Below, in pieces: positions 1 through 37,321 of a stretch of 64,000 nt of DNA. Every line of letters starts with the position of its first letter. The first letter of the stretch is position 1. The notes under the pieces are model-generated. The model was not told the origin of the DNA, searched no databases, and worked only from the letters and a program-made list of their open reading frames with translations. Source of the stretch: Onchidella celtica (lineage: Eukaryota > Mollusca > Gastropoda > Systellommatophora > Onchidiidae); assembly GCA_963931925.1 (NCBI GenBank), contig OZ007581.1, positions 14,008,822 to 14,072,821 of the forward strand, in the 5' to 3' direction. The position numbers and the translations under genes were made by a program.

Positions 1-516
1 ACCTTCTTTTTTTCTTTCACATTGACATTAGCAGTGACCTCTCCGATCAACATTCAACAACAATTTGCCGTGTCTGTGTGAGTAAAATAAGCACTTTAAA
101 GAGACACCCAAGCGAAACGTCATTAAGAGCTTCACTTAAGTGTGCCGAAGAGAGCAAAGGCATTTGGATGTCGTTTAATGAGTCAGTGTCTCCAAAGGAT
201 TGCACTGTTTGTGCACACCATGCTTCATTTAATCATGGGTCTAGAAATCAAAGTAAATGGCCCGAAAGTGGCAGTACCAAAGAAGGAATGGAAGCTATAA
301 CAACTGATATTGAAATGTTGTCTGAGGTTTTCAAGGAAGTTGATGTTCTTGAAAGCGTACAAGAATCTCATGACACAGACTTGCACTACAGTAATACTGA
401 CTCTTCAGCAAGAACAGCCGATGGTTTATCTGGAAATGCAAGCATCGTCACAGGCTTTCAATCAGCGAATTGCAACACTAGTCAACAACATTATGTGCTG
501 CAAGACAACACATTAG
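1..516 (+). CDS. RAG1 N-terminus-like zinc-binding domain exon, copy A (partial at left edge)
   Basis: The reading frame is open from the window edge, so the first Cys pair is missing. What remains matches the other copies: an FHIDIS core, the second Cys pair ICRVC (codons 63-77), an invariant Trp in KGIW, then CTVCAH. These follow the order LCRICG / F.IDI / C..C / W / C.VC seen in five more copies here and, from memory, in the non-core N-terminal region of vertebrate RAG1. The domain probably binds zinc; its function here is unknown. A Ser/Thr/acidic linker follows. The likely splice donor is ATTAG|GTGCTC after base 516, leaving phase 1 with a split Gly codon. A CT-rich tract starts just downstream. 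The copy looks open and possibly functional, but it lacks its 5' part here and the donor is not a strong consensus. Confidence 0.7.
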
Positions 517-1374
517 GTGCTCACCTCTTTCTCTCTCTCTCTTTCTCTCCATCTCTCAACTGTCTCTCGCTCTTTCTCCTCTCTCTCTCCCTGACTGTCC
601 TCTCTTTCTTTCCCGCCCCCCCCCTCCCTGTATCTTTCTCTCTTTCCGTGCGTCTGTCTGATCTCTCCCTGTTCTCCTGTCTTCTCTCTGTCTCTCTCCG
701 TCCCACCCTCTACACCATTCACGACATCGTAGTGTAAACGAAACAGCATTGTTGTTGATAAATTGTTTATTTTTTTAAACGAATGTTTGTTTTTTGTTGT
801 TGTTGTTGTTGTTGTTTTTTATCCCCGAAGGTCACTAGGCATGTGCAGGGATTAGTTTTGTCCGTTTAAATAATTTCATAATACCGGCCTGCCAACGTTC
901 TTAGCTCCCAAAATGCATTTTACCACAAAAGGATCGGCTTGACAAATTGGCAGTCACTATGCATTCGAGAAGAAACGTGGCTGCGATACGGTAAACTTTT
1001 GTGTGTCAGGTTGAATATTAGAAGACAGAGAACACAATAGTTCTATGGAGATTGGGTACAAAGGACAACTGGAAGAGTTGTGAGTTTTTATACACTGTGG
1101 TTTTGGGGAGCCGCATAGATAATGGTTGGATCATACGATCGTTTATTATAACTATTGTAGGTGTGTGATTTCAGTGGTAAACAAATGGAGTGCGATAGAA
1201 GGGCTCATGTAGACGCTGATCTCTCTCTCTCCCTCTTTTCTCTCTATCTATCTATCTACCTGCCTGTCTGTCTATCTGCGTGCCTAGAGTGTTGCAAGCG
1301 CTGCATGCTGTACGATTCCGCCCCCCCCCCTTCCAAAATAATCACCCACATACAGTAGAAATTGTGAGACTGAC
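517..1374. other. Non-coding interval with low-complexity tracts
   Basis: It holds a CT-rich tract (about 524-712), a TTG/T run (about 791-820), a second CT/TCTA tract (about 1219-1280) and a C run (1320-1330). I see no exon of the flanking dehydrogenase and no HINFP exon. The apparent reading frames through the CT tracts are low-complexity artefacts. Confidence 0.6.
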
Positions 1375-17180: not shown

Positions 17181-17185
17181 ATTTG

Positions 17186-19065: not shown

Positions 19066-19180
19066 GCCAAAAAAAATTTTTATTTAACCCTTAGTTTCCA
19101 GAATTTAACCCCCAGTTTGCAGCACAACTTGCCGGCTACCAAGGGCTACAAATGTATCTCAGTTTTTGAACAACAAAAAA
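19066..19180 (+). repeat. Dispersed repeat family R1, copy 2 (partial)
   Basis: ATTTAACCCTTAGTTTCCAG, AATTTAACCCCCAG and AACTTGCCGGCTA follow the block order of the copy at 10078. Confidence 0.55.
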
Positions 19181-19425
19181 AATGTACTTTTACGGTGGTT
19201 AACCATGCTGGCCCCGGAAAAGAAACCAGTGAACTTGACCTAAATTGATATAATAACACGGCACTACCACTATTTATTTCTGTAAACTTGTTACATTGGG
19301 GCCACCCATGGGTATGTCTGGACTTTTGGTGAGTTTGGCCATATTATTAGAAGCACGAACTTTCAATGTGTGCTAGTTCCACGCACATCAAGTGTGGTAA
19401 TGTATGTATTATGTGTCTTCCCCAG

Positions 19426-19503
19426 AGCCCAAGTTTGAATGTTCACACTGCAACAGTAGATTTGGTTCAGAGAGAATACTCAGGGATCATATGAGGCATC
19501 ATG
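19426..19503 (+). CDS. HINFP: Histone H4 transcription factor (HINFP), C2H2 finger exon
   Basis: The acceptor cttccccag precedes base 19426 and the donor is CATG|GTGAGT after 19503. The 78-bp exon is phase 1 at both ends and encodes one C2H2 finger, FECSHCNSRFGSERILRDHM, with C-x2-C-x12-H-x3-H spacing. The wording closely follows the vertebrate HINFP finger that precedes [12 protein letters not shown], and that is how the exon at 37055 begins after joining (G|TC gives Val). The orthology call is therefore strong. HINFP is a nuclear DNA-binding factor for histone H4 gene transcription at the G1/S transition. Vertebrate HINFP has further fingers upstream; none was found between here and the left edge, so those exons lie outside the window or are missing. 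Confidence 0.88.
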
Positions 19504-19509
19504 GTGAGT

Positions 19510-19587
19510 ACAATGTGTGGATCTGTCTGTTTGTCTTTGTCTTTGTGTTTGTCTTTCTCGCACCAGCTTTCTCTCTCTTTCTCTCTC

Positions 19588-19629
<42 letters not shown>

Positions 19630-19653
19630 AGTCTCTGTCTCTCTGCCTCTCTC

Positions 19654-19724
<71 letters not shown>

Positions 19725-19755
19725 GTCTGTCTGTCTTTCTCTCTCTCTCTGCAGA
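19510..19755. repeat. CT / CTGT microsatellite just inside the HINFP intron
   Basis: (TC)n and (TGTC)n runs begin within about 15 bp of the donor. They create three overlapping spurious reading frames. Confidence 0.9.
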
Positions 19756-20949
19756 ACATTGTGATTTTTACAATGTCAGCCACTAATGTCATGGACAGAA
19801 GCGACCCTGAGGCGAACCAAGGCAGTTACATGTTACTGCCCGGTTCGTCTAACCTTTTCTCACTATTGCGTGAGAAAGACAAGACCCTAAATACACTGTA
19901 TTTGTTTAACGAAGGTTCTCTCCTTCCAGAGATCTCAAATCGTCTCGCCCTTCCAGGAGTTTCTTTTTTTTTTCCATTTAGTCATTGTTTTTGCTGTTGT
20001 TTATATCTGTACGAATTTGCTGTTGTTGTTGTTATATTTCATTTATTTGTTGTTGTTGTTGTTTTGGAGGGGGGGGGGGGCACGGCTGTTCCTCTCCTCT
20101 CAAAATCTCCAAACTTAAAAGTTTGGCTCGGTATTTCGTAACCCGATACACACCCGACCGTACCTTCACGCCACCCGGGAGGACCGTCGCATCCCCAATG
20201 TGTATTGAGAGCATCAATAAAATCTCTCCGTGTCTCAGGTGTGGAAGTGCATGCAGCCCATGACCTGTGTAGTGTGTAGCGCACAGGCAAAAGGGGTGAA
20301 AGGCTTAAAAAGCCGAGTTTTATCATTCTATTACTCGGTTCATTTTGTCTTCACTTTTTGTTAAAAAAAAAATACCATGAGTTCAACCATCATTTTCTGA
20401 TGGCACCGATACAACTTTCACACTGGACAAATCACAGTAAGTAGTACAGTATTAATTTTATCTGTTTTTATAAGCCTAATCAGTATTATCAGTCTAAACA
20501 TTTGACATCTTTCAGATAAAATAAATCCTAATTTGCTAGTTTATTGAGATATCTAATTTGCAGGCTTTTGATCCTGAATATATCCTGTGCAGGGTAGTAT
20601 TTTATGCGTTTGATTTTTGACTCCTCAGCGGCTGATTTTTAAATGGCATTTTTGCAAAGAGGAAGACCTGAAAAAAAAATCCTGCTTTGCACATAATTAT
20701 ATCAATGAAGTAAACTTCTATTTTAGGTAATGATATAACTATCTTGCGCCCTCTCTCTTTTTCTCGCTTTTTCTGTCCCTCTCTCAGTCACTCACTCACT
20801 CACTCTCTCTCTCACTAAGAAAATTGTGATATAGTTTACAGGATTTTAATCATTCTACTCTGTTATAATATATTATTTAAATCATGATACTTTTAATTCA
20901 AAATTTCACAATAATTTCAGTAAACTATTTTATTCTTGTTTACTTTCAG
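19756..20949. other. HINFP intron, upstream of RAG1-N-like copy B
   Basis: T/TTG-rich tracts near 19966-20065, a G run at about 20066-20080 and a CT tract near 20750-20815. No exon recognised. Confidence 0.5.
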
Positions 20950-21395
20950 CTGCATCCCAGTCATGGCCGAAGTTGGTAAACACACTGAGACCGTTCACCA
21001 GGAACATGTGGATAAACTAGATGTCTATGTCGAGTGTGTGGATTAAGGGTACAGTCAACTAGAGACTGGGAATACAGAGTTCAACCACGCCGGCGCACAT
21101 ATTTCAGAAAGGATTTACTAGTATTCTTTGGAATTGACATTTCTAGTGACAAAATCCATCACTCGCCTGTCATGTGTAGGAAATGTGTTCGCAGAGCACA
21201 CAACCTGAAGACAAGAACTGTCGCTCATGAAGCCCTAACAACAATCAGAAACAGTGTGATAAATTCAAAGGACATATGGTGTGAGTTCAATGCTGAGTAT
21301 TTAATGCACGAGTGCAGGCTCTGTGGCCATTTTTTTTAGTTTTTCTAAAGGTGGAAGGCCAAGGTCCCGGAGACGTTGTCTCCCATCATTAACAG
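20950..21395 (+). pseudogene. RAG1 N-terminus-like domain exon, copy B (frameshifted)
   Basis: The acceptor tactttcag precedes base 20950 and an ATG lies at 20963 (MAEVGKHTETVHQEHVDKL). An 8-base insertion at about 21020-21027 then breaks the frame immediately before the first Cys pair. The next frame gives CGLRVQ, DLLVFFGIDISSD, the pair MCRKC, the Trp in DIWCEF and CRLCGH. A T-run length change near 21331-21337 breaks the frame again, after which SFSKGGRPRSRRR is readable up to a donor TTAACAG|GTAATG. Two frameshifts make it a probable pseudogene, though the T-run change could be a sequencing error. The final split codon is again Gly in phase 1. Confidence 0.72.
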
Positions 21396-21767
21396 GTAAT
21401 GTTAGCAAAGACAAATTACACCAGGAAAACTAACGAAATTGTTTTTAAAAAAGGTTTGAAGTTTTGATTTACTGATTTTTATATGTCTTTGTAAATTAAA
21501 AATAATTAGTACATAATACTATCACCTAAAAATGTGTATAACTTTTTTGATGAGCATTTGCAGAAGATATGTGCCGTTTCAAAGCAAGTGTAGTACATGG
21601 GTGTAGCATTATTAGACTCAAAGTTATCGAATTCAGAGTTGGCATAAAACATGAAAGTTTTCCAAAAACCACTGGAGAAAACAGCCCTTGTGACTTGCGA
21701 CCCGTGAACAGAGGTATCATGTTACATCATTAAGTTAGCAGGCAGGAACAGCCGGGGGGGGGGGGGG
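21396..21767. other. HINFP intron sequence, nothing recognised
   Basis: AT-rich, with a G run at about 21754-21767. Confidence 0.45.
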
Positions 21768-21975
21768 TCACTTTACCAAATTCAGGAGCGTGGCAGCAAC
21801 AGCTCCAACATATTACAAGGATTTTCGGTGACGTTCAGAGTCATGTTAGGGTTAGGGTATACAGTCCAAAGATTGCAGCACCCATGGCAGTGTTCGGTAG
21901 GACGAAATCCCTTAGCCGATGACCTGTGTGTGTGGGGGTCTGTTGCTGCCCCGCTCCTGAATTTGGTAAATTGAG
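21768..21975. mobile_element. MITE with about 33-bp terminal inverted repeats (family M6)
   Basis: The left end TTTACCAAATTCAGGAGCG then TGGCAGCAACAG is mirrored at the right as CTGTTGCTGCCCCGCTCCTG then AATTTGGTAAA. The same right terminus recurs at about 26236-26262, at the end of a THAP-derived segment. That terminus marks the start of both units of the 4-kb tandem duplication. Confidence 0.75.
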
Positions 21976-24189
21976 TAGGCCTACAAAAGAAAATCATGCG
22001 GCGATTGGGGAGGGGGGGGGGGGGCGTTCGGACTCGAAAGTAGTTCGATTTTCACTGCCTGAAAGTAGACTTATCATATCACCAGAGATATCTTAACACT
22101 GGCGTGCATTTGCACGCAGGGCCTTGAAAATGTGTCTGTTTCTCGAAGTTTGTCGTGCAGCAGCTGTACTGTCGTTTTATTGATAAAGACCGTATGTGGC
22201 AAAATCGCATTTTACAAAAACAATAGATTATGTCTCATTGAGTTCCGCTCTATCAAAAGAACTTATTCAACAGAGAAAGAGAGAGAGTGAGAGGACATGC
22301 AGACATTAGAGACAGAATGACAGAGAGAAAGACAGACAGACAGACAGAGCCAGTGAGAGAGTGCGTGTGGGAAGGGGAGAGAGAGAAGGAGAGAGAAATT
22401 ATAATTCGGATGGAGAGATAGATCTAGAACATACTTTTCATTCTATAATCTTAGAAAGCGAATATGACCTACATTGTCACATACTGTCTTTTTCTGTAAA
22501 ATGGCAGTGTAGCAGTATTTATAAATCTCTCATCCCGCCCTCTTGTCAAGGGGTCAGCGGTGGCTCATGTTTCCCCAGTGGGGAAAAATAATGTGTGCTG
22601 ACCCAGATAGGCCTAACAACTCGTGCAGTGTTGCCGCGAGCAGACAAGTCCGTGCTCTCTGCTGACCAACACACAGAGCATTCATTCACTGCATTGGAAA
22701 GATCCAGTGCTGCTCTTCAATATAATTTGACTCCTTCGTGAAAGTTTTGTGTTTCTGCTATTGAACGGTTTCAAGAACTGTGCCCGGAAGTGTGTTCTTG
22801 TGATTCTGATTATCGAATTAACTGATTGTTTCTCAAAATTGCACACGTGAATATCTCATAATATTTGCGCGTCTGGAACTCGAATGTGTCAGTATCAGAA
22901 TTTCCAGAATTGTGCCCCGGTGGTTTTCGTTTTGTAACTAAGTACCGGTTAGAGTGAAACATTACAGCCCCCATGCAAAAAGTATATAGCTCTATACGGT
23001 GTTGTCACACGTGCTTACTGTAACAATATAACCCGAAAAATTTAGAAATTCCACAGTGTCATTGCTGTTCAGCTGTAAGTTGCAACAGTAATAGAAACAG
23101 TAGATCCGATCTATCTTTCTACCTCCTCCCTAAGACAGACCTGTACGTTTTTCTCTCTAATTATGTACATTATAATGATAAGATTTGACTAAACAACAAA
23201 GCCGAAACAAGCGTGCTGTATACTCCTTTTGGTGAACTGAATCGATAATTCAATTATTCAGTGAGAGTATACTTTACCAATCTTTTACTTAGTTACTGAA
23301 GTTCTTTACCAATCTATAATTTAGCTGTTGAATGAGAATGTACTTTACCAATCATACCTTAGTTAATGAATTGAGAATGTACTTTATCTATTAGATCTGT
23401 AACTCAGGTGTTGAATAAGAGTAATCCAATGAATGAGAACATAGGCCTACTTTACCAATCTATAGCTTCGTTAATTAATGAGAATGCAGTTTATCAATTA
23501 TACCTCGGTTGTTGAATAAGTAGGTGTTCAACAATCTATAATATAATTATCTTGGTCAATGAATGATAATGTACTTAATTACTTTACGTCTTTACCCATT
23601 TATACCTTAGGTTTACATGAATAAGAATCTACTTTACTGTCTGTACTTTCTCTCACCTCCATCTCTTAGATATTATTGTTTCACAAAATGCCCTGCAATG
23701 AATGCATTTCTTTCATACTGTCAGGCTAATTGCTGCATTAAAAGGGCGTAATGTTTGTTTTTATTATATTATAAGCGCAACGTTACCCATCAGCGACTGT
23801 TCCAGAGAAGGTTTGGAATGACTACCGGTAGATGCTTTATTGAAAGGAAACGCGTCTTGTAAAGAACACTTTGGGACATCTTTTCTAATTGAAACCCAAA
23901 ACAACGCAAATATTTAAATCAGATGTTTGGTATCCATATAAAAATAATTTACAATTGAGCACGTAGCAGTTTTGATTATTGTAGGTCTGTGATAGTCACA
24001 ATGTCCTAGATTCTACAGCAATTTCTCAACTATTTTCTATTAACTTTCGCTTTACCGCCGACTACCCGTGTATTGTTTACCGCGCTTCCTAGCAAGCAAG
24101 GCAGTTCGCACCGAAGTCACTGGACACCAGGCAGTGCTAGAGTATCTGGAAGCGTCCGAAGTGAATTTTCTTGTTCTTTGATACTATTA

Positions 24190-24475
24190 TTACCCAGGTT
24201 TATCCGCCAACAATATCGGCCAGGGTTTATCTGCCAGTATTGGTGTTGACTAAATACCAAAAAAAAATGTTGTTGGATTAAAAAAAATTAAACAGATTGA
24301 TTCCTTTAAACAAAAGAAAAAAAAGGACCTATAGTCCTATAGAAAAAAGCAAGGGAAAAAAAACAAACAAACAACCAAAAAACCTGGCCAAGAATTCCTC
24401 AGAATTGAACCACGGTCACCTGATTGACAGGCGAAGCTGCTAACCACTGTGCTATTGCAGACCCTGTTTAATTGT
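24190..24475 (-). mobile_element. tRNA-derived SINE, family S2 (minus strand), in unit 1
   Basis: Read on the minus strand: head with GCACAGTGGTTAGCAGC and GTGGTTCAATTC (about 24400-24470), then an A/T-rich spacer, then AATATTGGCGG-type units (about 24198-24245) as in the 13480 copy. Confidence 0.7.
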
Positions 24476-24547
24476 GAAGAAACTTTTCGAAAATAAACAT
24501 CACGAAACCAATTATCAGCGGATAAACATTTCGTTGGATGTTTGTAG

Positions 24548-25234
24548 GAGATAGAGTGACTTGGACTTCGAGATCTAGGTGTGTTTTAAAAATAACAATG
24601 GAGCACTCGCACAAAAGACATATGACATTTGTAAACGAACTTTGTCGGATCTGTGGGAGGAAAAACATCAATAAAAAGGATAGAAAGAGGAGCAAGAAAG
24701 CGCGGTCATGCGAGTCGTTCTGCGCTGATATTTTCCTAGTATTTACCATTGACATCAGGCAAGATTATAAGGAAGGAACTTTCTCGAAGTTTTTCTGCCA
24801 CAGGTGCTATAGTTATATTAATACTACACGGCGTAAAGGTGTCGTTTCGTTACAAAATGCTAGAGAATTAGCCGAAAGCGGTAAGGGCATTTGGTGTGCA
24901 TTTGATGGTGCGAAAACAATTCAAGAATGTTCTGTGTGCAGCCACCGAATGAAGTTGAGCCATGGATGTGTCATAAGAAAGCAAGTGCCCATCACGCCCA
25001 AGGCAGAAGTCATTGACGATGCTCAAACACATATTGCTAATGATGAGGGCACGGAAGTTCCGTCAAGTGATACAACAGTTGGAGAGAATTCTCCGATGAT
25101 CCTGAGATCTGGGATTCACATACTACAGGATTTGTGTCAGAGTCTGAAGAAGCTCATGGAAGATTCTCCAACCAACAAGGAGGAAGATTTGCTCACATCT
25201 CTCATCAGACAAAAACTGGCTAGACAATCAATGG
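24548..25234 (+). CDS. RAG1 N-terminus-like domain exon, copy C
   Basis: A possible acceptor tttgtag precedes base 24548. I take the ATG at 24598 (MEHSHKRHMTFVNE), though an in-frame ATG at 24538 also exists. The protein reads LCRICG, ADIFLVFTIDIRQD, the pair FCHRC followed by YSYI, a Trp in GIWCAF, then CSVCSHRM. These give three Cys pairs in the RAG1 N-terminal order. An acidic/Ser linker (PITPKAEVIDD... to SLKKLMEDSPTNKEEDLL) follows to a strong donor ATGG|GTAAAGT after 25234, phase 1 on a Gly codon. No disruption is seen. No core catalytic RAG1 region is nearby, so no recombinase activity is implied. Confidence 0.75.
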
Positions 25235-25404
25235 GTAAAGTTCCTAATTTATTGTGTGCAATCGCTGAACACATCTTTGGTCATGTGTGCATGTGTCAGT
25301 GTGTAACGCGTATTTTTTTTTTCACCATATGAGTTGTACAACTTTAGTCAAGCACATTATTATATTTCACGAAGTGAGTGTTAATGGCCGAGCCCCGCAT
25401 TTAC

Positions 25405-25775
25405 TATAAAAACATAGGCGTCTTAACTCGCCAGCTCGCCTCTCATGCTGAAGGTACCGGGTTCAAATCCCGGTAGGTGCAGGCATGTTGGAATTTGGGG
25501 ATTTTTCTCTTATTTTCCTGTCCCTGATCCGAAGGTAGGTAGCATCGAACACCTAGTCTTCTCGGACAAGAATGAAAAATTCGGAGGGCCCGTGTGCACG
25601 TTGTGCACGCTATAGATATCTTGGCAGTTGGAAATCGTGAAGAGCAAGCCGCACAAGGCCGCTGCTTGGGTGAAATGGTAAAAAAGTAATGTCTACCACA
25701 ACGAGAAAAAAAAAGAAAACAAGAAAAGTGAGTTGTAAATGTCAAGGGCGGTGAACCTCCTAAACTAAAGACCTA
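25405..25775 (+). mobile_element. tRNA-derived SINE, family S1, in unit 1
   Basis: The head remnant AACTCGCCAGCTCGCCTCTC has a B-box-like GGGTTCAAATCCCGG. The body AGGCATGTTGGAATTTGG, TTCTCGGACAAG and CTTGGCAGTTGGAAATC leads to a tail CAAGAAAAGTGAGTTG and CCTCCTAAACTAAAG. Confidence 0.8.
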
Positions 25776-26029
25776 AACACTAACTCACCAGGGGAGCTCG
25801 CTGACCCCTTGCGATCACCCCTCACGGACGCTCCTGAAGTCGCGTCCTTGTGGTATCTCTCTCATGTGACTCAAATGGGATGTCTTACCCCCCTTTTTTT
25901 TAATGAACTTGATAGATATTAATAGAGAGTTAAAGTATTTATAGAGAGATTTCACTTCAGCCAAATCGCGAAACTAGGTCGCTGCGGTAAACAAGTATTG
26001 AGAGAGTCTGCCATCACCAAAGATAGTGT

Positions 26030-26255
26030 GCATTGATTTTGATTCGTTGGCTGATTTGCATTGAGAGCAATGAACCAACCAGCGGCGAGCTAAAAAAAAA
26101 AAAAAGTAGGTCGCTACAGTAAACAATGGTACGTGGGTACATGTTGAGTGGGAGACGTTCGGTCAATTCTTTCTCTTCCTTTCCCTTGTTTACTATACAC
26201 GGGTGGTAGGGAAATTGTCCACCCTTTCCACCCCTGTCATGCCCCACTCCTGAAT
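26030..26255 (-). mobile_element. THAP-derived repeat fragment at the duplication junction
   Basis: Minus-strand text includes HDRGGKGGQFPYHP and VNKGKEEKELTERLP, matching the THAP-like reading frame at 31392. It ends rightward in the M6 terminus. The segment lies exactly between the two 4-kb units, so it probably marks the recombination point or a later insertion. Confidence 0.6.
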
Positions 26256-28424
26256 TTGGTAAATTGAGTACGAAAGAAAATCATGCGGCGCGAGGGGCGT
26301 TCGGACTGGAAAGTAGTTTGGTTTTTACTGCCTGAAAGTAGCCTAGGTTTATCACCAGAGATTTCGTACACTGGCGTGCATTGTACGCAGGGCCTTGAAA
26401 ATGTGTTTGTTGCTGGAAGTCTGGCCTGCTGTACTACCGTTTTATTGATAAAGACCTTATGTGGCAAAACCGCATTTTACAAAAACAATATAGATTATAA
26501 AATGTCTCATTGAGTTCCGCTCAATCAAAAGTATTTATTCAGCAGAGAAAGAGAGAGAGCGGGAGAGAGGAAGGAGAGAGGACAGGCAGACAGACATTAC
26601 AGACAGAATAACAGACAGACAGAGGCAGTGAAAGAGTCGGTGTGGGAAGGGGAGAGAGGAAGAAGGAAGAGAGAGAGAAAGAATGGGGGAGAGAGAGAGA
26701 GGGGGGGGGAGAGAAATTATAATTGGGATGGAGAGATAGAACACAGTTATGATCATTCTATAAAATAATGTTAGAAAGCGAAGAATTATAACCTACATTG
26801 TCACATACACGTACTATCTTTTTCCGTAAAATGGCAGTGTATTGCTATAAATCTCTCATGCCGCCTTCTCGCCATGGGGCCAACGGTGGGTCATGTTTCC
26901 CCGGTGGGGAAAAAGTGTGCTGACCGAGGCTCTGTGCTGACACAGATTGGCCGAACTACTCGGCGTTCTCTGGCCAACACACAGTGCATTCATTCACTGC
27001 ATTGGAAAGATCCAATGCTGCTCTTCACATTTGTAAAAATTAATTGACCGATATGTGAAAGTTTTGTGCTTCCGCTATTGTACCTGTCAAGAACTGCCCT
27101 GAAGTGTGTTCTTGTGATTCCAATTATCGAATTATCTCAGTGTTTCTCAAATGGCCTTCTCAAATTGTACACGTGAATGCTTCGTAATTTTTGCCCGTCT
27201 GGAACTCGAATGTGAGCCAGTGAGGGTCCCGAGCCAGCGCGGTAGAACGGTAGCCAAGTAGAGGGATGGCATAGGGTTTTCATTGCAGTTTTGTGTACAA
27301 CATGCTTATTATTAAATATAACCTGAAAAATCTAGAAATTCACAATGTCATTGGTGTTCAGCTATAAACTGCAACAGTAACAGAAACAGTAGATCCATCT
27401 TTCTATCGCGTCCCAAAGACAGACCTGTACATTTTTCTCTTTCTTAGTCTTATTTATCGTACAATATAATGATAAGATTTGGCTAAACAACAAAGCCGAA
27501 ACAAGCGTGCTGTATATTCCCTTCGGTGAACTGAATCTACAATTCAATTATTCAGCGAGAATATACTTTACCAATCTTTAAGTTAGTTACTGGAGTTCTT
27601 TACCAATCTGTCACTCAGCAATTGAATGAGAATGTACTTTACCAATCTATAACTTAGATAATGAATTGAGAATGTACTTTATCTTAGTTAATGGATTGAA
27701 AATGTGGGCCTACTTTATCAATCTGTAACTCAGGTGCCAAACTATAATTATGTTAGTCAGTCAATGAGAATGTACTTTACTTAATTAATTAATTAATGAG
27801 AATGCACTTCAGCAAGCTATAATTATCTTAGTCAACGAATGAGAATGTACTTTACCAAAGAATGTTCTTTACTGTCTGTAGTTTGTCTCACCTCCATCTC
27901 TGAGATATTATTCTTTCACTGAATGCCCTGCAATATGCATTTCTTTCATACTGTCATTCTAATTGCTGCTTTAAAAGGACGTGGTGTTTGTTTTTATTAT
28001 AAGCGAAACAATTTTACCCACCATCAACTGTTGCAGAGAAGATTTGGAATGAATATCGGTAGATGCTTTATTTAAAGGAAACGCATATAGTAAAGAACAC
28101 TTTGAGACATCTTTTCTAATTGAAACCAAAACAACGCAGATATTTAGATCAGATGCTTGTTATCCATATAAAAATAATTTACAGTTGAGCACGTTGCAGT
28201 TTTGATTATTCTTGGTCTGTGATAGTCACATAGTCCTAGATTCTACAGTGGTTCCTCGTCTATTTTCTATTAACTTTCGCTTCACCACCGGCTACCCGTG
28301 TATTATTTACCACGCTTCCTAGCAAGCAAGTCAGTTCGCACCGAAGTCGCTTGACACCAGACAGTGCTAAAGTAACGGGGAGCACCCGAAGTGAACTTTC
28401 TTGTTCCTTGATAGTACATGTACC

Positions 28425-28690
28425 CAGGTTTATCCGCCAACAATATCGGCCTGGGTTTATCTGCCAGTATTAATGTTGACTAAATACAACAACAACAGCA
28501 AAAAACCTGGATTTATTCCCTATTATTGTTGTTGGATAAAAAAAAAACATTGAACAGGTTGATTCCTAATGAAAAAAACTTATTAAAAAAAAGAAAAAAA
28601 AGAAAAAAAAATCCCGTCTGACAATCGAACCACGGTCACCCGATTGACTGGCGAAGATGCTAACCACTGCGCTATTGCGGACCCTGTATA
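28425..28690 (-). mobile_element. tRNA-derived SINE, family S2 (minus strand), in unit 2
   Basis: Duplicate of the 24190 copy: minus-strand head at about 28618-28685, A-rich spacer, and TTATCCGCCAACAATATCGG at 28433-28452. Confidence 0.7.
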
Positions 28691-28767
28691 ATTATGAAGA
28701 AATTTTTCCAAAGTAATAACCACTAAACCAATTATCAGCGGATAAATGTTTCTTTGGATGTTTGTAG

Positions 28768-29455
28768 GAGATAGAGTGACTTGGACTTCAAGATCTAGGT
28801 GTGTTTTAAAAACTTCTAACACTGGAGCACTCGCACGAAAGACATATGACATTTGTAAACGAACTTTGTCGGATCTGTGGGAGGAAAACTACCACTAAAA
28901 AGGAAAGGGAAAGGTGCCTTAAAGCATATTCATGCGAGTCATACAGCGCTGATCTTTTCCTGGTATTTGCCATTGACATTAGACAAGATAAGGAAGGAAC
29001 TTTCTCAAAGTATTTCTGCTGCAAGTGCTATTGTTACTTTAAAAGTACAAGGCGTAAAAGTGTCCTTTCATTACAAAATGCTAGAGAATTAGCCGAAAGT
29101 GCTAAAGACGTTTGGTGTGCATTTGATGGTGCGAAAACAATTCAAGAATGTTCTGTGTGCAGCCACCGAATGATGTTGAGCCATGGATGTTGCAGAAGAA
29201 AGCAAGTGCCCATCACGCCCAAGACAGAAACCATTGACGATGCTCAAACACATATTGCTAATGATGAGGGCACGGAAGTTCAGTCAAGTGATACAACAGT
29301 TGGAGAGAATTCTCCGATGATCCTGAGGTCTGGGATTCACATACTACAGGATTTGTGTCAGAGTCTGAAGAAGCTCATGGAAGATTCTCCAACCAACAAG
29401 GAGGAAGATTTGCTCACATCTCTCATCAGACAGAAACTGACTGGTCAATCAATGG
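28768..29455 (+). CDS. RAG1 N-terminus-like domain exon, copy D
   Basis: Paralogue of copy C from the 4-kb duplication. The upstream ATG of copy C is lost (ACTGG replaces ATGG) and a small indel shifts the leader frame. The first usable ATG is therefore 28846 (MTFVNELCRICGRK). Beyond it the frame is open: LCRICG, ADLFLVFAIDIRQD, the pair FCCKCY, the Trp in DVWCAF, CSVCSHRM, then the same acidic linker. The donor ATGG|GTAAAAT follows base 29455 in phase 1. All zinc-ligand candidates are kept although many other residues changed, which hints at constraint. Whether it is expressed is unknown. Confidence 0.73.
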
Positions 29456-29574
29456 GTAAAATTCTAGTTCATCGTGTGCAATCGCTGAACACATCTTTGG
29501 CCATGTGTGCATGTGTCATGTATTTCGTGTTGTGAGTGTTAATGGCCGAGCCCCGCATTTACTATAAAAACATA

Positions 29575-29945
29575 TATGTAGGCGTCTAACTCGCCAGCTC
29601 GCCTCTCATGCTGAAGGTACCGGGTTCAAATCCCGGTAGGTGCAGGCATGTTGGAATTTGGGGATTTTTCTCTTATTTTCCTGTCCCTAATCGGAAGGTA
29701 GGTAGGATCGAGCACCTAGTCTTCTCGGATAAGGACGAAATATTGGGAGGGCCCGTGTGCACGTTGTGCACGCTCTAGATGCCTTGGCAGTTGGACATCA
29801 TGAAGAGCAAGCCGTACAAGGCCGCTGCCCTGACAAAATTCTAAAAAAAAGTAATGGCTACCACAACGAGAAAAAAAAAGAAAACAAGAAAAGTGAGTTG
29901 TAAATGTCAAGGGCGGTGAACCTCCTAAACTAAAGACCTAAACAC
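29575..29945 (+). mobile_element. tRNA-derived SINE, family S1, in unit 2
   Basis: Duplicate of the 25405 copy with the same head truncation and tail, as expected from the tandem duplication. Confidence 0.8.
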
Positions 29946-30225
29946 TAACTCACCAGTGGAGCTCGCTGACCCCTTGCGATCACCCCTCACGGACGCTCCT
30001 GAAGTCGTGTGCTTAAGCGCTTGTGGTATCTCTCTCATGTGACTCAAATGGAATGTCTCCCCCCCCCCCCCCCTTTTTTTTTTAAATGAACTTGATAGAT
30101 CTTAGCAGAGAGTTAAAGTATTTATAGAGAGAGATTTCACTTCAGCCAAATCGCAAAACTAGGTCGCTGCGGTAAAGAAGAATTGAGAGAGACTGCCATC
30201 ACCAAAGATAGTGTGCATGTTTGTT

Positions 30226-30868
30226 CACTGTGGTTTGTTCGTATTTTTGGGCTGACTGAAACTATTTAGAGCCGTTTGTAAGCTCCAACGCCCCATGGAA
30301 ATGCACAGACGGGTATTGTTTACCTACTTTCCGCTCCATGCTAACAGTGGTTTCGCGGCCCCTCCCGTATCTCGCAGTGGAACTCGGCCAAAAATAAAAC
30401 TTCTGTATACACACTGACTCTCTGATATTAGCATAAATGTCGCCTGCCTAATCCGGATATATGCAAAATCCACAACTGTGAAAATAGCAATGAAAAAATG
30501 TGAGTGAGGAAACGCAGTATACTGTCTGAGGTATCACCTCCGTGCATTAGGACTGGGAGAAAGTCTGATCCAGCCAAAGATATGAGATAAGAGCGTAAAG
30601 AACAGAACATGCAGTGTATCACTACTGGATGTAACTTATTGTTACCCAGTGAGACCAAGTCACCACTCTCTCTTCATTGTGCTCGGGCCGTACAGAAAGT
30701 CAAGTTGTAGACAAGAGATTATCAAATAAAACATATCGTCGGTCTGCTGTTGGAACCTTTGTAAATCGTTAAAACCAGCCTTTGAGTTGTTAAAGGGGGG
30801 GTGGGGGGCACAGTAGTGTAACTACGAAACCAAACAGAGAAAATACTGAGTTATGTTCACTGCTCATC
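30226..30868. other. HINFP intron sequence, nothing recognised
   Basis: No exon; a G run near 30796-30808. Confidence 0.45.
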
Positions 30869-31282
30869 TATAGGTAGAAAGCGCATTTCCGCCATCTTTA
30901 GTGTCCAGACCCACGCATCACCATGGTGATTGTGGCATTGATTTTGATTGGTTGGCTGATTTGCATCGCGAGCAATGAACCAACCGGCAGCGAGCTAAAA
31001 GTTGGTCGCTACAGTAAACAATGGCACGTGTGTTTATGTTCGGTAAGAGACGATCGGTCAATTTTTCCACTTCCTTTCCTTTGTTTACTATACACTAAGG
31101 GTAGGGAAGTTATCCATCCTTTCCACCCCTGTCATAATAATCAACTACAGTGCAACCAGCAGGCTTTTTAACCGCTGAGACATATCTTGAAGTTACACTA
31201 ATCAGCTGATCCACCGGCCATCTTCAGTGGCGGAGGAACAAGACAAAAACACGCCATGACGTCAAGCGCTTTCTACCTATAG
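30869..31282 (-). mobile_element. TIR element with THAP-derived interior, left half of a head-to-head pair
   Basis: CTATAGGTAGAAAGCGC at 30869-30885 is mirrored by GCGCTTTCTACCTATAG at 31266-31282. Between them, on the minus strand, lies the same THAP-like leader found on the plus strand at 31392 (GACAGGGGTGGAAAGGATGG and AAACAAAGGAAAGGAAGTG), here broken by indels. Confidence 0.65.
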
Positions 31283-31700
31283 TCCCATTATGAATGACGT
31301 CACAGCGTGTTTTTGTTTTGTTCTTTGGACACCCAAGATGGCCGGTGAACAGCTGATGAATGTAATTTCGAGATGTGTCTAACCGGTTAAAATGCCTGCT
31401 GGTTGCATTGCAGTTGACTGTTATGACAGGGGTGGAAAGGATGGATCCAAGCTGGTCAGATTCCCTACCATCCGTGTAAACAAGGGAAAGGAAGTGAAAG
31501 AATTGACCGAACGTCTCCCATGTGCGTGTACACACGTGCCGTTGTTCACTGTAGTGAACTACTTAGCTCACCGCCGGTTGGTTCGCGACGCCTCAAGTGC
31601 TCGCAGTGCAGATCAGCTAACGAATCAAAATCAATGGTACCATCACCATGGTGATGCGTGGGTACTTACATCAAAGATGGCTGATACGCGCAATGGGCCC
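31283..31700 (+). mobile_element. THAP-derived element, right half of the head-to-head pair
   Basis: Roughly the inverse of 30869-31282: CAGCGTGTTTTTG, AAGATGGCCGGTG, CAGCTGAT, then the THAP-like frame, then CATCACCATGGTGATGCGTG. The two halves form an imperfect palindrome about 0.8 kb long centred near 31283. Confidence 0.65.
31392..31514 (+). pseudogene. THAP-like zinc-finger N-terminus, element-borne fragment
   Basis: The ATG sits in a good context (AAAATGCC). MPAGCIAVDCYDRGGKDG, then KLVRFPTIRVNKGKEVKE, follows the start of THAP domains: Met-Pro near the N-terminus, C-x4-C, then an FP dipeptide. The later C-x2-H pair and the AVPTIF-type end are not found, so this is a fragment or a first exon. 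THAP domains are the DNA-binding part of P-type transposases and derived proteins, which fits its place in an inverted-repeat element. Confidence 0.5.
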
Positions 31701-33295
31701 ATTTATAACTTTCTATGTTAAAGAGTACGGCCCCATAACAACAACCCCCAAAGACCAGTCCTATACGGCTGTTTAAAACCCGCAAAATGGTGCCCTTTCG
31801 TTAAAGCCCTGTCACATGGCTGGTGATGCCTATTCAGCTGGGTGAGATTTATGACCTTCCAGGCCACCCTCGTGGGTTACTTCTGCATCCTTTGCCCTCG
31901 CCCTACCTGCGCTCAGTGGAGCAAGTCAAGTAGAAAACTGGAGTGTTTTACACATGAGAATCACTTGCAGTACTGTCTTTACTTGTCGGTTTTTTTCATG
32001 CCGCGTGTGCTGTCTTCATTTTGAGTTGACATTTGAATAGCACAAACCATCCTCTTCACTTTGATGTCTTTTGTTTCAAGTTGTGCATTAACAGTTTTGA
32101 CAAGAATGGCAGGTAAGCTAATTAGCGTGTTTTTAGCTACTATATCAGTACATGTAGTACTACTAATTAAGCCCCAATAACATCGTTTGGGATTTTTTTT
32201 TTTTCAAGATAATTTGAAGTGTGAGTTTAAGGCACAAGCTTAGGTGTGGAGTTTCCAACGGTACCACGGCTGTTTCATTCCTCTGTGAACGCATCAAGCA
32301 TCAACGCGTCAGGTTAGGCTGATACAAGCAGGCGTTATCTTATCCTTTTATGGCCTGAGTTTTACCAAAGATTCAACATTCTTTGGTTTCACCTCGGGCA
32401 GGGACAGTGGAGGAATGCTAATGTGGCAGGTCATAAAGCTCTGGAGCAACTGTGGGTTTATCCGAACCAACATTTATTTTCACTCCAGTTACGAATTGAA
32501 CCGCATTTTGAAGCCGAATATTGCATTATTTCATCAATTTTTTAATCTTGAGGACCACATATCAAGAAAATAGTTACTTTGCCAATCAAGACAGTACAAT
32601 TTTTGTGGCAGAATCTCACTGGTAAGTACTTTTTCTGATTACTTCAAATACCCATGATAACTTCAGAGTAGAATGTACCATGTCACTAAATTAAAAACTG
32701 TCATTAAAAATTAACCCGACAGATCTCAATGATAAGCATGGTATCATAATATTCAGTATGACTTCACCAAGGTATGGATGTAAATTGTAATCAGAGTAAA
32801 ATTAGCATCACACAATTTTCTGCAACAGGGGTTTTCATGAGGTCTGTGTAATTACTTCCTATGAGAAAAGAAGTATGATAAGTTAAGTTTATAACTTATT
32901 GTCAAGTTGACACTTAACCCAGCTTATGTAAGCAAAATATTCTAAATAACAATCTGAAAAACGTATATGAAACGAATAGCATTGTGCATTTTGATACAAC
33001 TTTACTCTGAAGGTCATTATTATGAATTCATGTAAAAATTTAAAATAAAAAAAAAAATTAAATTTCAAAGACTAAACACAGATTGCCTGTAGATCTAAAG
33101 CAAACTCAGCATTGCAACATGTCACGTACAGTATTATTTTGAGTATATATATCCAGACACTCTCAGAACTGAATCAGCACTGTAAATAGTCTTTTAGTTT
33201 TATAACAATTATTTATTAAGTTCACAGTGATATTTATATAGTTACTTTTATGTAATGTTATTTTAATGGTTTGCTGCATCTTTCTGTATTTATAG
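31701..33295. other. HINFP intron upstream of copy E
   Basis: No supported feature; the sequence becomes AT-rich toward the acceptor of copy E (ttctgtatttatag at 33282-33295). An untranslated first exon for copy E could lie here but cannot be recognised. Confidence 0.4.
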
Positions 33296-33845
33296 GAATG
33301 CCACCGCACCAGAGGGATGGCAGGGGTCTCTCTCCACACTGAACAACAGCATCAGGAGTACATGGACAAACTTTGTCGTATTTGTCGTGGAAGGAGTTAC
33401 CGACGTGACACCAAAATTAAACCAAAACTGTGTGTGCACTACAGTGATGATTTGTATCGTTATTTTGGAATAGACATTTCAAAGAGCAGTTCAAAAGCAA
33501 CATTTTCTACAACTCTTTGCAATGCATGCTTTGGAAGAATCATCAGTTTCCGGAAAAGGCCCATCACAAATTTCACACTCTCCTCGGCAAAGGAGCTGGT
33601 AGAACAGAGCAGGCATATATGGAGCCCTTTTGATCCATCGAAATCAATAGAAGAATGTACATTATGCTCACATTTTTTGAGCTTCAGCGTGAAAGGGAGA
33701 CCACCAAAACGACGAAGAACTGCAGAACCCAGAGTCAGATCTGGGCTGCGACAGAAACCTTCATCACAAGAATGCATGTTATCCTCACCATTTTCTGGCC
33801 AACAACTGATAGAACAGCGAACTTCCGATGAAACTGCCATCTCTG
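33296..33845 (+). CDS. RAG1 N-terminus-like domain exon, copy E (intact)
   Basis: The acceptor tatttatag precedes base 33296. The ATG at 33317 opens MAGVSLHTEQQHQEYMDKL, then LCRICRGR, DDLYRYFGIDISKSS, the pair LCNACF, the Trp in HIWSPF, then CTLCSHFLSF and a basic block KGRPPKRRRTAEPRVR that resembles a nuclear localisation signal. An upstream ATG at 33298 is out of frame. The donor CTCTG|GTAATC after 33845 leaves phase 1 on a Gly codon. All candidate zinc ligands are present and there are no stops. This is the best preserved copy and lies about 3.2 kb before the next HINFP finger exon. Confidence 0.78.
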
Positions 33846-34019
33846 GTAATCCTGAACTGTCATCTTTTCCACAACCATGTAGTAATTTACAGGGATGCCA
33901 AAAGTCCAGTTTTTCTGTCAGTCCCTGTGTATTTAATTGTATTTTGTGTGTTAGTGATTATTTAAAAGCTGTTTAAAAAAAATGTTGGTTTTGGTGCAAA
34001 TTCGATGACACGTTCATTT

Positions 34020-34610
34020 TTCAAAAATCATTTGGCATCCCTGAATTTAAGCCCTGAAAATGTTCAAGCTCTGAGCGGGCAGTCAGAATTAGATATCACA
34101 ACTGAACCACAAGTGTTATTTCACTGAGGAGGTATCAGCACCTCCTCCTTGTGACCTTCCATTTGACACAATGGATTTGTCTGGTGTACCACATGATGAG
34201 CATCTCACATCATTGACTGAAGATATACCTTATCAGCACCACTTCCCCCAGCTTTCCTTCCCTCAACCAGAGGTGGACCAGCCACCAAACATACTTGGCA
34301 TTACACAGTCTATTTATATGACAACTCCTAATCAGAAAACACCAAATATCACTCACACATCTCCATCCTAACGTCGCACTAGTACACCATCACCCCATGC
34401 ACGTAAGCAACTCATACTGAAAGATATTGCAACATCCCCAATCAAAGATCTCATGCCATCCATCAAATATTTCTGCACAAAACCTATAAATGAACCATTG
34501 TCCAAAGAAGAGCAAGTTTGCACTTACTTGGCAAAATGAATATTGAATCAATCCAGTGATAAAGACACACTCAAACTACCAGCCGCAGGTCACAGGTCAG
34601 CCTTTATATT
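34020..34610 (+). pseudogene. Decayed exon-like coding stretch downstream of copy E
   Basis: A readable stretch runs NLSPENVQALSGQSELDITT, then after one frameshift near 34125 TEEVSAPPPCDLPFDTMDLS and PPNILGITQ. It continues past an in-frame TAA at 34369 to KDIATSPIKDLMPSIKYF, and past a TGA at about 34537 to DTLKLPAAGH. Amino-acid use is like a Pro/Ser-rich regulatory region. It suggests that copy E once continued into its own second exon, since degraded. I do not recognise the family. Confidence 0.45.
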
Positions 34611-35146
34611 TTAAAAGAGTCAGAAAACCAAGAAAGCCCACTGGAACAACAGGACAGACTATTTGAGGGTCAGAAGAATGAAGGACATTATGTGAGTAGC
34701 CCTTGGTGCTGATTTTCAAAGGTCTTCTGTATTTTAATTTGCATTTGTTTACTGTAACAGACGGTGTGTCTCTTGTATTCAGGAGAAGTCGGGTTAAGCT
34801 TTAATAAATATTTTTTAATAACTGATCAAATACATGTATATTTTGATGTCAAGAGGACACCTTTCTGATGTGCATTTTATGTTATGAAGTTCCTGTTTAA
34901 TGCCTTACTTGAATGTTGAAAATAAAAATACAAATTTGGAATTTACAACCCTTGTTTTTGTGATGTTGATACACAGCCTGGTTGCTGGGATATTACTGCA
35001 TAAAAGGAGGGGAAAATTGACAATCTGGGCACATTTAATTGACAGGGGAGCCTGCTACACGGGTCTACATGTTCACTGGGGTATCGGGTTACACTATCTG
35101 ACCCTGCCTCTAGTTGCTGGTGAAAGACTAAGTTGTCACTTCTAAA

Positions 35147-35237
35147 CATGTCTTCTCTCAGCTGCAAATATTGATCCCCCAAACATACTCAAAAGACGTT
35201 CAGCAGGAACAATCTCAAAGCAACAAAACTGCAGTAC
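35147..35237 (+). repeat. 91-bp direct repeat, exon-like, copy 1
   Basis: Base-identical to 37231-37321 by reading. It begins inside a splice-acceptor-like tract (TGTCTTCTCTCAG|CTGCAAAT) and then reads AANIDPPNILKRRSAGTISK in phase 1, the phase of the RAG1-N-like donors. An exon would end within or just after it, but no clear donor is visible. Confidence 0.75.
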
Positions 35238-35674
35238 CAATTTCATTTGGTTGAGCAATGTTTTAAGTTAGTTATCATTTTTTTTCCCTCGCGCACTTAC
35301 GACATGTCAGACCTAAATAAGATTCATTGACTGAGATGTTCTTGGATTTGTGCAGTTTCCCTTCTCCAGAAGTCATGTTTCTAAAGCCTTACTGTGTTGA
35401 TGTATGGTAGAAATAAATGGAAATGCCCCCAGCTATGTATTTTTATTTTTACAGGCAAACCCCTCACTTTTCCACCCTGCTGTCTTCATTTTACCTATCT
35501 CCAGCTGTTACCTGTTCGGTTCTCCCTCCCTTTCCCTTTACATGTATTCAGTCTTGTGTCACTACCCTGATTTGCCACTGATCATTATGTTATGTCTGTG
35601 TTTTGTGCGAAACGACAGTTTGTTTCCAAACTTTACTTGACAGTTTTGAAACTTTTCTCTCCATCTTTATTTAG

Positions 35675-36481
35675 ATCATGGACGTGATGAGCATATGGTG
35701 AAATTACATTCTCTCTGTCGAGTTTGTGGACTAAGATGCCAGACTGCTCCAGAAAAGAGAAGAAGACCTCCTCTTCGGGTAGCCAACCATGCCTCAGACA
35801 TCCTGATGGCATATGGAGTATCAGCACAGGATGATAATGAGGCGATGCATTCAAAACACCTGTGCACACGGTGTTTAGCGAGAATTGGCCACATCAAGAA
35901 GTCTGGCCTGTCTATAAGGAAGATTGCATCAACCAGAGAGATACTTCAACGTAGCACCGTAATTTGGTCCTCTTACAATGCTGAAGTCAAGGGGGAAGAC
36001 TGTCTAGTATGCAGTCATTAATATCTTACATCTAAAGGAGGGCGCTACAGGAAGTCAGGACGCAGAATGATGGCACAGATGCCCCCTGCATGGAGCACAG
36101 CTCATTCCCACACATCAAGTCTCCAAAAAGTTGAAGTACACTTGCCAGAGGAAACCAGTGAAAATGTTGATGTCATCATGCAATCCTGTGGAGCAAATAC
36201 AACACTGGACATTTCACCACAGGATACAAACTTCACCTTGGGCACAGAGACAGAAGATGCATCAGTTTCATTCACAGAGCTGCTCCTTGGCCCATCCGTC
36301 ACCTATACAGATCCATCATTTTTACCAACACAAAGTGAAACTTCTACATGCAATTCTTTAGTGATAAGTAACAGTAATATCCAAACAAGTGGAAACGACA
36401 CCACCACTTTGTCCAGTCACTGTGGGCTTGGTATTGTGCTCAGCCACAGAGAGGAAACGTTATTACATCACAGAGATATTG
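35675..36481 (+). pseudogene. RAG1 N-terminus-like domain exon, copy F (one in-frame stop)
   Basis: The acceptor ccatctttatttag precedes base 35675 in phase 1. The frame reads DHGRDEHMVKLHS, then LCRVCGLR, SDILMAYGVSAQD, the pair LCTRC, the Trp in VIWSSY, then CLVCSH and an immediate TAA at 36019. The same frame continues open after it: YLTSKGGRYRKSGRR, then a long Ser/Thr/acidic linker to about 36481, where ATTG|GTGTAT gives a phase-1 donor on Gly. A single nonsense change in an otherwise open exon means recent loss, readthrough, an allele or an error. There is no in-frame ATG before the conserved region except 35695, so an upstream exon may supply the start. Confidence 0.7.
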
Positions 36482-37054
36482 GTGTATCACTCACCAGTTT
36501 CAGAATCTTTGTAATTTTGTTCATAAGAGCGGTATTTCATATTTAATTATGAATCATATATCATCCAGTCAGTTATGAATCATCTCTTCATAAGTGAACA
36601 TTGTGTTATGAAATTTATATGTCTGAAAATTTCAGAATTTGTCCAAAATAGAAATCAAATTTGTATTTTGATCCTGTATTTAGTCTTTGTTATTCACAAT
36701 CTTGAAAATGTGGTGTATTATTTGTTTGAAGCTAAAAAATCACCACTAGCCTCTACCTGTGCTCACTAGACCATGACCGAGCTACCCCACCTAGCAGTAT
36801 AGCTGACACTGTGACATGTATGGCTTGTGGGCGGTTGAACTAAAGAGCACCACTGAAACTGCCCTGTGTAATGAGGTTCCAAAAGCCCACTGATGATATG
36901 TGCAGATTTTTGCCAAGATAAGAGATGAAAGCTTTTTAATGATCAATGCTTTCCATGCATCTCCTCACTGTATTATTTTATATCATGTTGTTTTAATATT
37001 CAAAGGATGTTGATGGCATTAGCACTTCTCTCTTTCCATCCCTTCTCCCTACAG
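36482..37054. other. Last part of the large HINFP intron
   Basis: AT-rich, ending in a strong pyrimidine tract and acceptor (ctctctttccatcccttctccctacag). No other feature. Confidence 0.55.
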
Positions 37055-37175
37055 TCAATCATTACAAGTGTCCACTATGTGACATGACGTGCCATTCCCC
37101 CTCTGCTGTCCGTGAGCACGTGCGTTACAGACATTCCCAGGAGAGAAGCTTCAACTGCCCACAGTGTGACTACAG
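37055..37175 (+). CDS. HINFP: Histone H4 transcription factor (HINFP), C2H2 finger exon
   Basis: This 121-bp exon starts in phase 1 and ends TACAG|GTAGGT in phase 2. It reads (V)[18 protein letters not shown], then REHVRYRH: a finger with C-x2-C-x12-H-x4-H spacing and near-identity to the vertebrate HINFP finger at this place. It then begins the next finger, FNCPQCDYR, which is completed in the following exon. The phase-1 acceptor matches both the exon at 19426-19503 and every RAG1-N-like donor in the intron before it. Confidence 0.92.
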
Positions 37176-37230: not shown

Positions 37231-37321
37231 CATGTCTTCTCTCAGCTGCAAATATTGATCCCCCAAACATACTCAAAAGACGTTCAGCAGGAACAATCTC
37301 AAAGCAACAAAACTGCAGTAC
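37231..37321 (+). repeat. 91-bp direct repeat, exon-like, copy 2
   Basis: Identical to 35147-35237, including the acceptor-like tract. It lies 55 bp after the HINFP donor at 37175. Divergence begins abruptly at GCAGTAC on the right and at CATG on the left. Confidence 0.75.

Follow-up and report, generated by a model that had tools for sequence, protein, structure and literature searches.

DUF1280 has been described as the Chapaev transposase family (PMC3985635), and the hallmarks of Chapaev elements are CAC...GTG termini and a target duplication of 3-4 bp (PMC4079192). The RAG1-N domain of these transposases has already been named the "Chapa" domain (PMC4411706, section 6). The Aplysia element N-RAG-TP (Panchin and Moroz 2008), as cited in two further papers, is said to be a mobile RAG1-N-like sequence (PMC8355894, PMC2996935). 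In the 64,000-nucleotide stretch of Onchidella celtica DNA analysed here (the window), six copies of a RAG1-N-like zinc domain, A to F, were observed. Their sequences make it very probable that all six are what is left of the front ends of DNA transposons of the Chapaev type (CMC group), from five lineages, that is, Chapaev fossils in or near an intron of HINFP, with one local duplication.

Five of the copies lie in a plus-strand intron at 19504-37054, as delimited by the splice sites read from the sequence. The exons on its left (19426..19503, +) and right (37055..37175, +) we take to be HINFP exons, by comparison with human HINFP. Their junction, CAT CAT G|TC AAT CAT, reads HH-V-NH, in agreement with the clean joining of exons claimed in the original prediction. 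The intragenic location claimed there was also borne out, as a genome search with 213 aa from the last HINFP exon gave a single match, at this locus, and no misplacement was seen. Profile matches on the plus strand place the domain at 21025-21336 (B), 24640-24966 (C), 28864-29187 (D), 33371-33691 (E) and 35713-36018 (F). A partial domain, that of copy A, is matched from position 3 and runs on leftward past the window's left edge; some 19 kb separate it from the intron to its right, and the six same-strand copies span about 36 kb. When the six-frame translation of the window was scanned with the first profile, in effect the sequences of B, D, E and F because C had been included in the wrong frame, copies B-F each matched with an E-value of 3e-36 or better, and copy A, already proposed as a sixth copy at the left edge, with 1.5e-15. 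The best match after these six had an E-value of 0.86.

In the alignment, S, C-x2-C, W and C-x2-C-x-H are common to all six copies. The motif order predicted for B-F is invariant for C-x2-C, W and C-x2-C-x-H, but the predicted F-x-I-D-I core is absent from copy F, which has YGVSA instead. The description of B-F as five same-strand exons is likewise right in part: there are five plus-strand copies in the intron, but their status as exons is doubtful: B has two frame shifts and F an in-frame TAA at the domain end (breaks within or at the domain in both), E is broken after the domain, and D has CTG at the place of the ATG of C. The copies were also considered as an alternative HINFP exon. The acceptor of F is in phase with the HINFP donor and those of B and E are not; this reading was given up because of the TAA in F and the kinship of F to dispersed elements.

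By profile comparison, the domain is real and related to the RAG1 N-terminus. A PDB search with the six-copy profile ranked the RAG1 N-terminal domain (21wb) first, with an E-value of 2.3e-6, and this was the only significant match. Single copies remained below the cut-off of Pfam RAG1_imp_bd (best 22.0 of 23.3 bits), and a 951-aa relative from the same genome passed it with 37.5 bits (E 2.6e-9). An assignment to the ZAD (zf-AD) of transcription factors could draw on matches below the 28-bit cut-off of zf-AD, found in copy B (16.2 bits, E 0.012), in copy F (15.4 bits, E 0.023) and at the front of the 951-aa ORF (21.3 bits, E 3.2e-4); copy B alone even scores better with zf-AD than with RAG1_imp_bd (E 0.49). 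We consider this assignment very improbable, as RAG1_imp_bd beats zf-AD in C, D, E and F and exceeds its cut-off in the relative, and RAG1 is the sole significant PDB match of the profile. A distant kinship between the RAG1-N-like and ZAD zinc domains is possible. The predicted likeness to the RAG1 N-terminus is thus upheld for the domain, although the element that carries it in this genome is Chapaev and not RAG1.

Across the 1.14-Gb genome to which the window belongs, the sequences joined to the domain mark it as the leading portion of DNA transposons present at scattered sites. Three protein searches of the genome gave at least 150 matches each, from 470, 689 and 412 first-look candidates. 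The 951-aa ORF combines the RAG1_imp_bd front with DUF1280 (E 1.3e-16), and its element is 4,082 bp long, with the termini CACGGCTGTT...AACAGCCGTG, the right end at 10409 of the joined stretch, and TGCA on both sides as a 4-bp target duplication. CAC...GTG terminal inverted repeats were present in this element and at loci L065, L069 and L071. As target duplications, L065 is flanked by AGCT, L069 by TGCT, L071 by CCTC and L072 by CCTA; at the ends of L073 just 3 bases are repeated, a length within the 3-4 bp hallmark. Since DUF1280 is joined to the domain, the termini are CAC...GTG and the target duplication is 4 bp long, we assign the dispersed elements to Chapaev. DUF1280 also matched close to relatives of three window copies, at C18:15061874 for E, C6:32986299 for B and C18:25589908 for F, and in one 402-aa family the front domain is fused to the C-terminal part. 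In tblastn searches with core queries, the catalytic core was found downstream of the domain in 34 of 43 outside loci and in none of the window copies.

None of the 118 matches of the genome search for DUF1280 falls in the window, and eight core queries gave no tblastn match there (E 0.5). The Pfam matches of the 98 intron ORFs (at least 55 aa) include no RAG1 core, and a RAG1-like transposon in the window was rejected on this ground; a genome search for the RAG1 core PF12940 gave no match, but its control was without a match as well, and the search carries no weight. The tblastn, DUF1280 and intron-ORF results agree with the original observation that neither a RAG1 core nor a transposase is visible. 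Because the window copies are without the DUF1280 transposase, we class them as Chapaev remnants, not complete members.

Close relatives of copies A, B, E and F occur at other places in the genome, and most of the aligned segments are 83-92% identical in DNA. Copy A (1..519, +) is the part of a Chapaev element cut by the left edge of the window; it contains the domain and linker, after which the likeness stops. It is 90-91% identical to L020, L022, L023, L030 and L048 over L017 845-2143, and its left end, CACGGCGGCT, lies some 780 bp beyond the left edge. On its right side, the comparison copy L079 has tandem repeats inside the ORF, and the right end of L079 was not reached. Copy B (20081..21757, +) resembles L005/L006 (78-88% over 20233-21417) up to a deletion junction near 21415-21417, and from there L077 (82% over 21415-21725, followed by a perfect match of 29 bases). 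Its ends, read by eye, are CACGGCTGTTCC at 20081 and GGAACAGCCG near 21757, the right one worn into a G run; G runs flank both sides, and a target duplication is unreadable there. Copy E (32529..34687, +) is the front third of an element and is 85% and 89% identical to L003 (C18:15063120); L003 runs on into DUF1280, whereas the likeness of E ends before the catalytic core, and the right end of E had no match in L076. Copy F (35234..36869, +) is 86-88% identical to L067/L068 over 35234-36364, and the 2-kb deleted elements L069-L075, seven in all, match it at 83-86% and 91-92% on the two sides of its deletion junction near 36360; its left end is missing. These alignments showed B and F to be internal-deletion derivatives that have lost the catalytic core. 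Terminal repeats were recognised at the left end of A, at both ends of B, the right one worn, and at the worn right end of F. The inverted-terminus scan for C, D and E gave nothing above control regions.

The tree requires the label "window" to change five times, and a single origin was found in 0% of 200 bootstrap trees. The six copies are accordingly placed by the tree in five separate lineages with C and D as sisters; four lineages (B, C/D, E and F) share the HINFP intron. Among the matches listed, the closest kin of all but the C/D pair are on other chromosomes. A tandem array of RAG1-N-like exons arisen in place within HINFP, as originally proposed, would suit the presence of six copies on one strand within some 36 kb and the duplicates C and D, but A, B, E and F group with copies elsewhere and not together, and belong to different dispersed families. 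Contradicted by both tree and kinship, an in-place RAG1-N gene array has almost no chance of being correct. The earlier hint at mobile sequences fared better, the copies being transposon remnants with dispersed kin. Four of the 150 matches listed lie within 40 kb, far from a uniform placement; this clustering and the shared plus strand are curious and go beyond what the transposon reading accounts for.

Copies C (24600..25240, +) and D (28817..29457, +) each comprise domain and linker. With a spacing of 4.2 kb and 85-90% DNA identity in several blocks across the C region, they are a local duplication. The nearest outside copy of C among the matches listed, L034, has 69% DNA and 51% protein identity. 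The frame is open in both, over about 213 codons, which is curious and left unaccounted for by the fossil reading. C and D, at least, might instead be a host gene pair nested in HINFP, in which the Chapaev front domain was kept as a small nuclear zinc protein and the catalytic part was lost. Over 638 aligned bases the frame of C diverges from that of D by 9.1%, with a single 3-base indel, compared with 18.2% and 11 indels in 1,362 for the left flank and 19.3% and 10 in 934 for the right flank, although the right-flank value is inflated by poor alignment after 26000 and windows in 25250-25999 diverge by only 2-13%. In neutral simulations both frames survived in 0.2-2.0% of runs when the whole frame was considered and in 1.9-9.3% for the domain alone, for a stretch that was picked for being open; the dN/dS of 0.57 is based on 57 differences, and the ATG of C is lost in D. 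We regard such a gene pair as unlikely.

In the favoured Chapaev-fossil reading, the transposase of these families consists of the RAG1-N/Chapa zinc domain, a linker and the DUF1280 catalytic core, in this order, and the front domain, by analogy with RAG1, may help DNA binding and nuclear entry. The copies were probably inserted independently of one another and mobilised in trans by intact relatives; B and F have lost the core by internal deletion, the matches of A and E end before it, and C and D arose by a local duplication. The copies are presumably spliced out with the intron, mostly without a protein product. Against this reading count the ends of C and D that do not rise above control, their nearest kin at 69% and a frame better kept than part of the flanks, as well as the local clustering and the core present in most outside loci and in none of the window copies. 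In kind, the copies are ordinary, being for the most part broken or shortened members of several common Chapaev families.

Compared with known systems, the window copies share with Chapaev (CMC) elements the front zinc domain, and their relatives have DUF1280, CAC/GTG termini and 3-4 bp target duplications; they differ in being without the core, B and F as internal-deletion derivatives, A and E by stopping short and C/D by having no recognised ends. With the central non-core domain of vertebrate RAG1 (residues 87-217) they share a homologous zinc domain, with LCRICG, the F-x-I-D core and a second C-x2-C, but no RAG1 core came up among the intron ORFs and no RAG2 was seen in the window, and the carrier is a Chapaev transposase. 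Mollusc RAG-like (RAG1L-RAG2L) transposons have the N-terminal zinc motifs in common with the window copies (PMC7204232) but carry a RAG1 core, RAG2L and 5-bp target duplications, none of which was seen here. N-RAG-TP of Aplysia, compared here through its published description, is alike in being, as cited, a mobile RAG1-N-like sequence. Titles and opening lines of abstracts in the literature searched describe neither clustering of this kind nor a Chapaev origin of N-RAG-TP. We propose tentatively, as a rather doubtful extension, that Chapaev derivatives reduced to the front domain have arisen repeatedly and form a class that is functional in part, with the 402-aa family, C/D and N-RAG-TP as examples. 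Their core-less proteins may bind transposon ends, act in trans as repressors or be retained by the host. If so, the donor in the "Transib plus N-RAG-TP" model of RAG1 would be a deleted Chapaev and not an independent element. An apparent RAG1-like array is replaced by a known transposon class, and mobile RAG1-N-only sequences gain a checkable origin, since in this genome they arise when Chapaev transposons undergo internal deletion. The finding is relevant to models with N-RAG-TP as donor of the RAG1 N-terminus (PMC8355894), and it agrees with the view that the Chapa domain is common to Chapaev and RAG1 (PMC4411706).

The domain was found in six copies on the + strand, five in the HINFP intron (B-F) and a partial one, A, at the left edge of the window. 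A first profile, built in effect from B, D, E and F, recovered all five intron copies and A, the copies named in the original prediction, in a six-frame search, with A at 1.5e-15 and the next match at 0.86. S, C-x2-C, W and C-x2-C-x-H are invariant across the aligned six copies. The intron is bounded by splice sites at 19504-37054, and the exons on either side, claimed to join cleanly, are indeed in phase as read from the sequence (HH-V-NHYKC). Colinear matches to human HINFP lie at 19416-19526, 37054-37173, 37735-37920, 38528-38650 and 39659-39739. Residues 1-222 of that query had no match in 1-19415, before the first exon that matches (19416), and the upstream part of the gene is either located elsewhere or too diverged. 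A 213-aa piece of the last HINFP exon had a single genome match, at this locus; that exon contains internal repeats at 40840-41535 (family D2) encoding repeated ...ATITPLPLTFSFSTGISPIKQEPGLDP... units.

Other features were also observed in the window. Two exon-like stretches on the minus strand (1381-1525 and 3373-3475) resemble by eye the first part of a membrane-bound enzyme of the SDR type, and copy A adjoins this SDR-like gene on the opposite strand. Nested inverted repeats at 30881-31691 resemble a foldback element, with arms at 30881-30974/31598-31691, 31112-31211/31347-31446 and 31212-31264/31295-31347. A minisatellite whose repeat unit is about 59 nt long occupies 14207-15241; four copies are shown from 15000 on, and the ORFs suggest a start near 14207.

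Single copies matched Pfam RAG1_imp_bd below the cut-off only, the best being C (E 1.4e-4), and zf-AD was matched by B (0.012, better than RAG1_imp_bd for this copy) and F (0.023). When the six-copy profile was searched against the PDB, RAG1 (21wb_A) ranked first with an E value of 2.3e-6, followed by full-length RAG1 at 0.0053, and proteins other than RAG1 appeared at 0.42 and worse. The central non-core domain of RAG1 (residues 87-217) is described as binding two zinc ions and double-stranded DNA without RSS specificity, and as mostly nuclear (PMC3124419). A RAG1-N domain, Chapa, has been described in Chapaev and Chapaev3 transposons (PMC4411706).

The 1.14-Gb assembly (43 contigs, window at C15:14008822-14072821) was searched with the proteins of E, C and F, which gave at least 150 matches each on many chromosomes (470, 689 and 412 first-look candidates, respectively, with the best 150 listed per search). 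Of the 150 matches listed for E, 14 lay in an open frame of 991 aa and 12 in one of 402 aa, which in a single case contains a TGA. One of the 991-aa frames (L062+L063), which is 951 aa counted from the ATG, matched both RAG1_imp_bd (37.5 bits, cut-off 23.3) and DUF1280 (E 1.3e-16), a family of putative Chapaev transposases (PMC3985635). The element is 4,082 bp long, with CACGGCTGTT at one end, AACAGCCGTG at the other and TGCA flanking both. Chapaev elements are DNA transposons that have terminal repeats and use a DDE transposase, their described hallmarks being CAC/GTG termini and target duplications of 3-4 bp (PMC4079192). In the one 402-aa copy that was read (L065, C10:34837600-34841300), residues 1-270 are fused to 757-951 of the 951-aa protein, and therefore the catalytic middle was deleted; AGCT stands on both sides. 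The remaining 402-aa copies are presumed to be alike from their equal frame length. The family would consist of deletion derivatives in which the front zinc domain is fused to the transposase's C-terminal part and the catalytic middle is missing. In a Chapaev of A's family (L079, C16:29634980-29637900), tandem repeats of about 34 bp were observed inside the transposase ORF.

No catalytic core was found in the window. The core lay within about 1.5 kb in 34 of 43 outside loci (the 62 loci with the domain, less 4 in the window and 15 that were duplicates or came from the 951-aa element), but these are the best matches with near-identical copies among them, and so are no fair sample. Copy A shows 90-91% identity to a family whose members begin at CACGGCGGCT; A has this start too, some 780 bp beyond the window's left edge, and its likeness ends at 519. 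Over 20233-21417, B is 88% and 78-80% identical to two copies on C6, which are 96% alike; beyond 21417 it is 82% identical to sequence that lies next to one of them but about 3.8 kb farther along, so the core was deleted from B. Its ends are likely CACGGCTGTTCC at 20081 and GGAACAGCCG near 21757. Copy E is 85% and 89% identical to a C18 copy over 32529-34687, and this relative extends into DUF1280 whereas E does not. Copy F is 86-88% identical to L067/L068 and 83-86% / 91-92% identical to seven 2-kb deleted elements, three being identical stretches on C3. Its left end is missing, its junction is at about 36360 and its right end is worn, at about 36869. A 91-nt block is 100% identical at 35147-35237 and 37231-37321, and since the first copy stops at F's missing left end, a recent rearrangement may have removed the left terminus.

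Copies C and D are mutual duplicates in several blocks (85-90%), and their nearest outside copy is 69% identical. A tree was built from 53 rows: RAG1, the six window copies, and the 46 loci that remained once duplicates, the seven short F-family loci and rows with a match spanning less than about 85 residues had been removed. In it, A, B, E and F each stood beside outside kin and C/D beside L034. Five changes of the 'window' label were forced, and a single origin appeared in 0% of 200 bootstrap trees; the bootstrap had not fully settled, and several end branches of the tree are long.

Among the 150 matches listed for E, four lay within 40 kb at this locus, and only C8 and C2 had other places with two. 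Uniform placement, which ignores insertion hot spots, put four together in none of 20,000 runs and at least three in 0.18%. If C and D are counted as one, three remain at this locus, and 0.18% is the relevant figure; B and F come on top of these and are absent from that list. All six copies lie on one strand, for which the chance is 1 in 16 for five independent lineages.

The frames are in varied condition. B has a slipped T-run and, ahead of LCRVCG, an 8-base surplus; in F a TAA follows CLVCSH, E is broken after the domain, A is open up to its cut, and D is without the ATG present in C. The dN/dS values against kin were 0.34 and 0.37 for B, 0.37-0.45 for A, 0.56 for E (0.22 on a 27-codon piece) and 0.59 for F (1.0 and 0.32 on two pieces with a second relative), with 0.57 between C and D; of two pairs of outside copies, one gave 0.74 and the other 0.25 and 0.98 on two pieces. 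These values suit transposons under selection when active and later released, and are no proof of selection in place. The C-D frame has diverged by 9.1% with one 3-base indel, while the whole flanks differ by 18.2% (11 indels) and 19.3% (10 indels), the right-flank value being inflated by poor alignment past 26000 (windows in 25250-25999 differ by 2-13% only). Both frames stayed open in 0.2-2.0% of neutral simulations for 213 codons and 1.9-9.3% for the domain only, the range being set by the input divergence and indel rate. The retention of the C/D frames is suggestive, but the fact that this stretch was picked for being open weakens it. Judged by eye, C and D have SINE-like sequence with a tRNA head beside them (25424-25690, 29587-29850 and 24398-24470).

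By analogy with RAG1, the front domain would aid nuclear entry and DNA binding of the transposase. Intact relatives may have mobilised the deleted copies in trans, and splicing would remove the copies along with the HINFP intron, with no known effect. Two observations are worth keeping: front-only elements are seen directly to arise when Chapaev elements undergo internal deletion, and the C/D pair still has open frames. As a sequence observation the finding of RAG1-N-like copies stands, but they are of a known kind: the window copies are Chapaev remnants bearing the Chapa domain.
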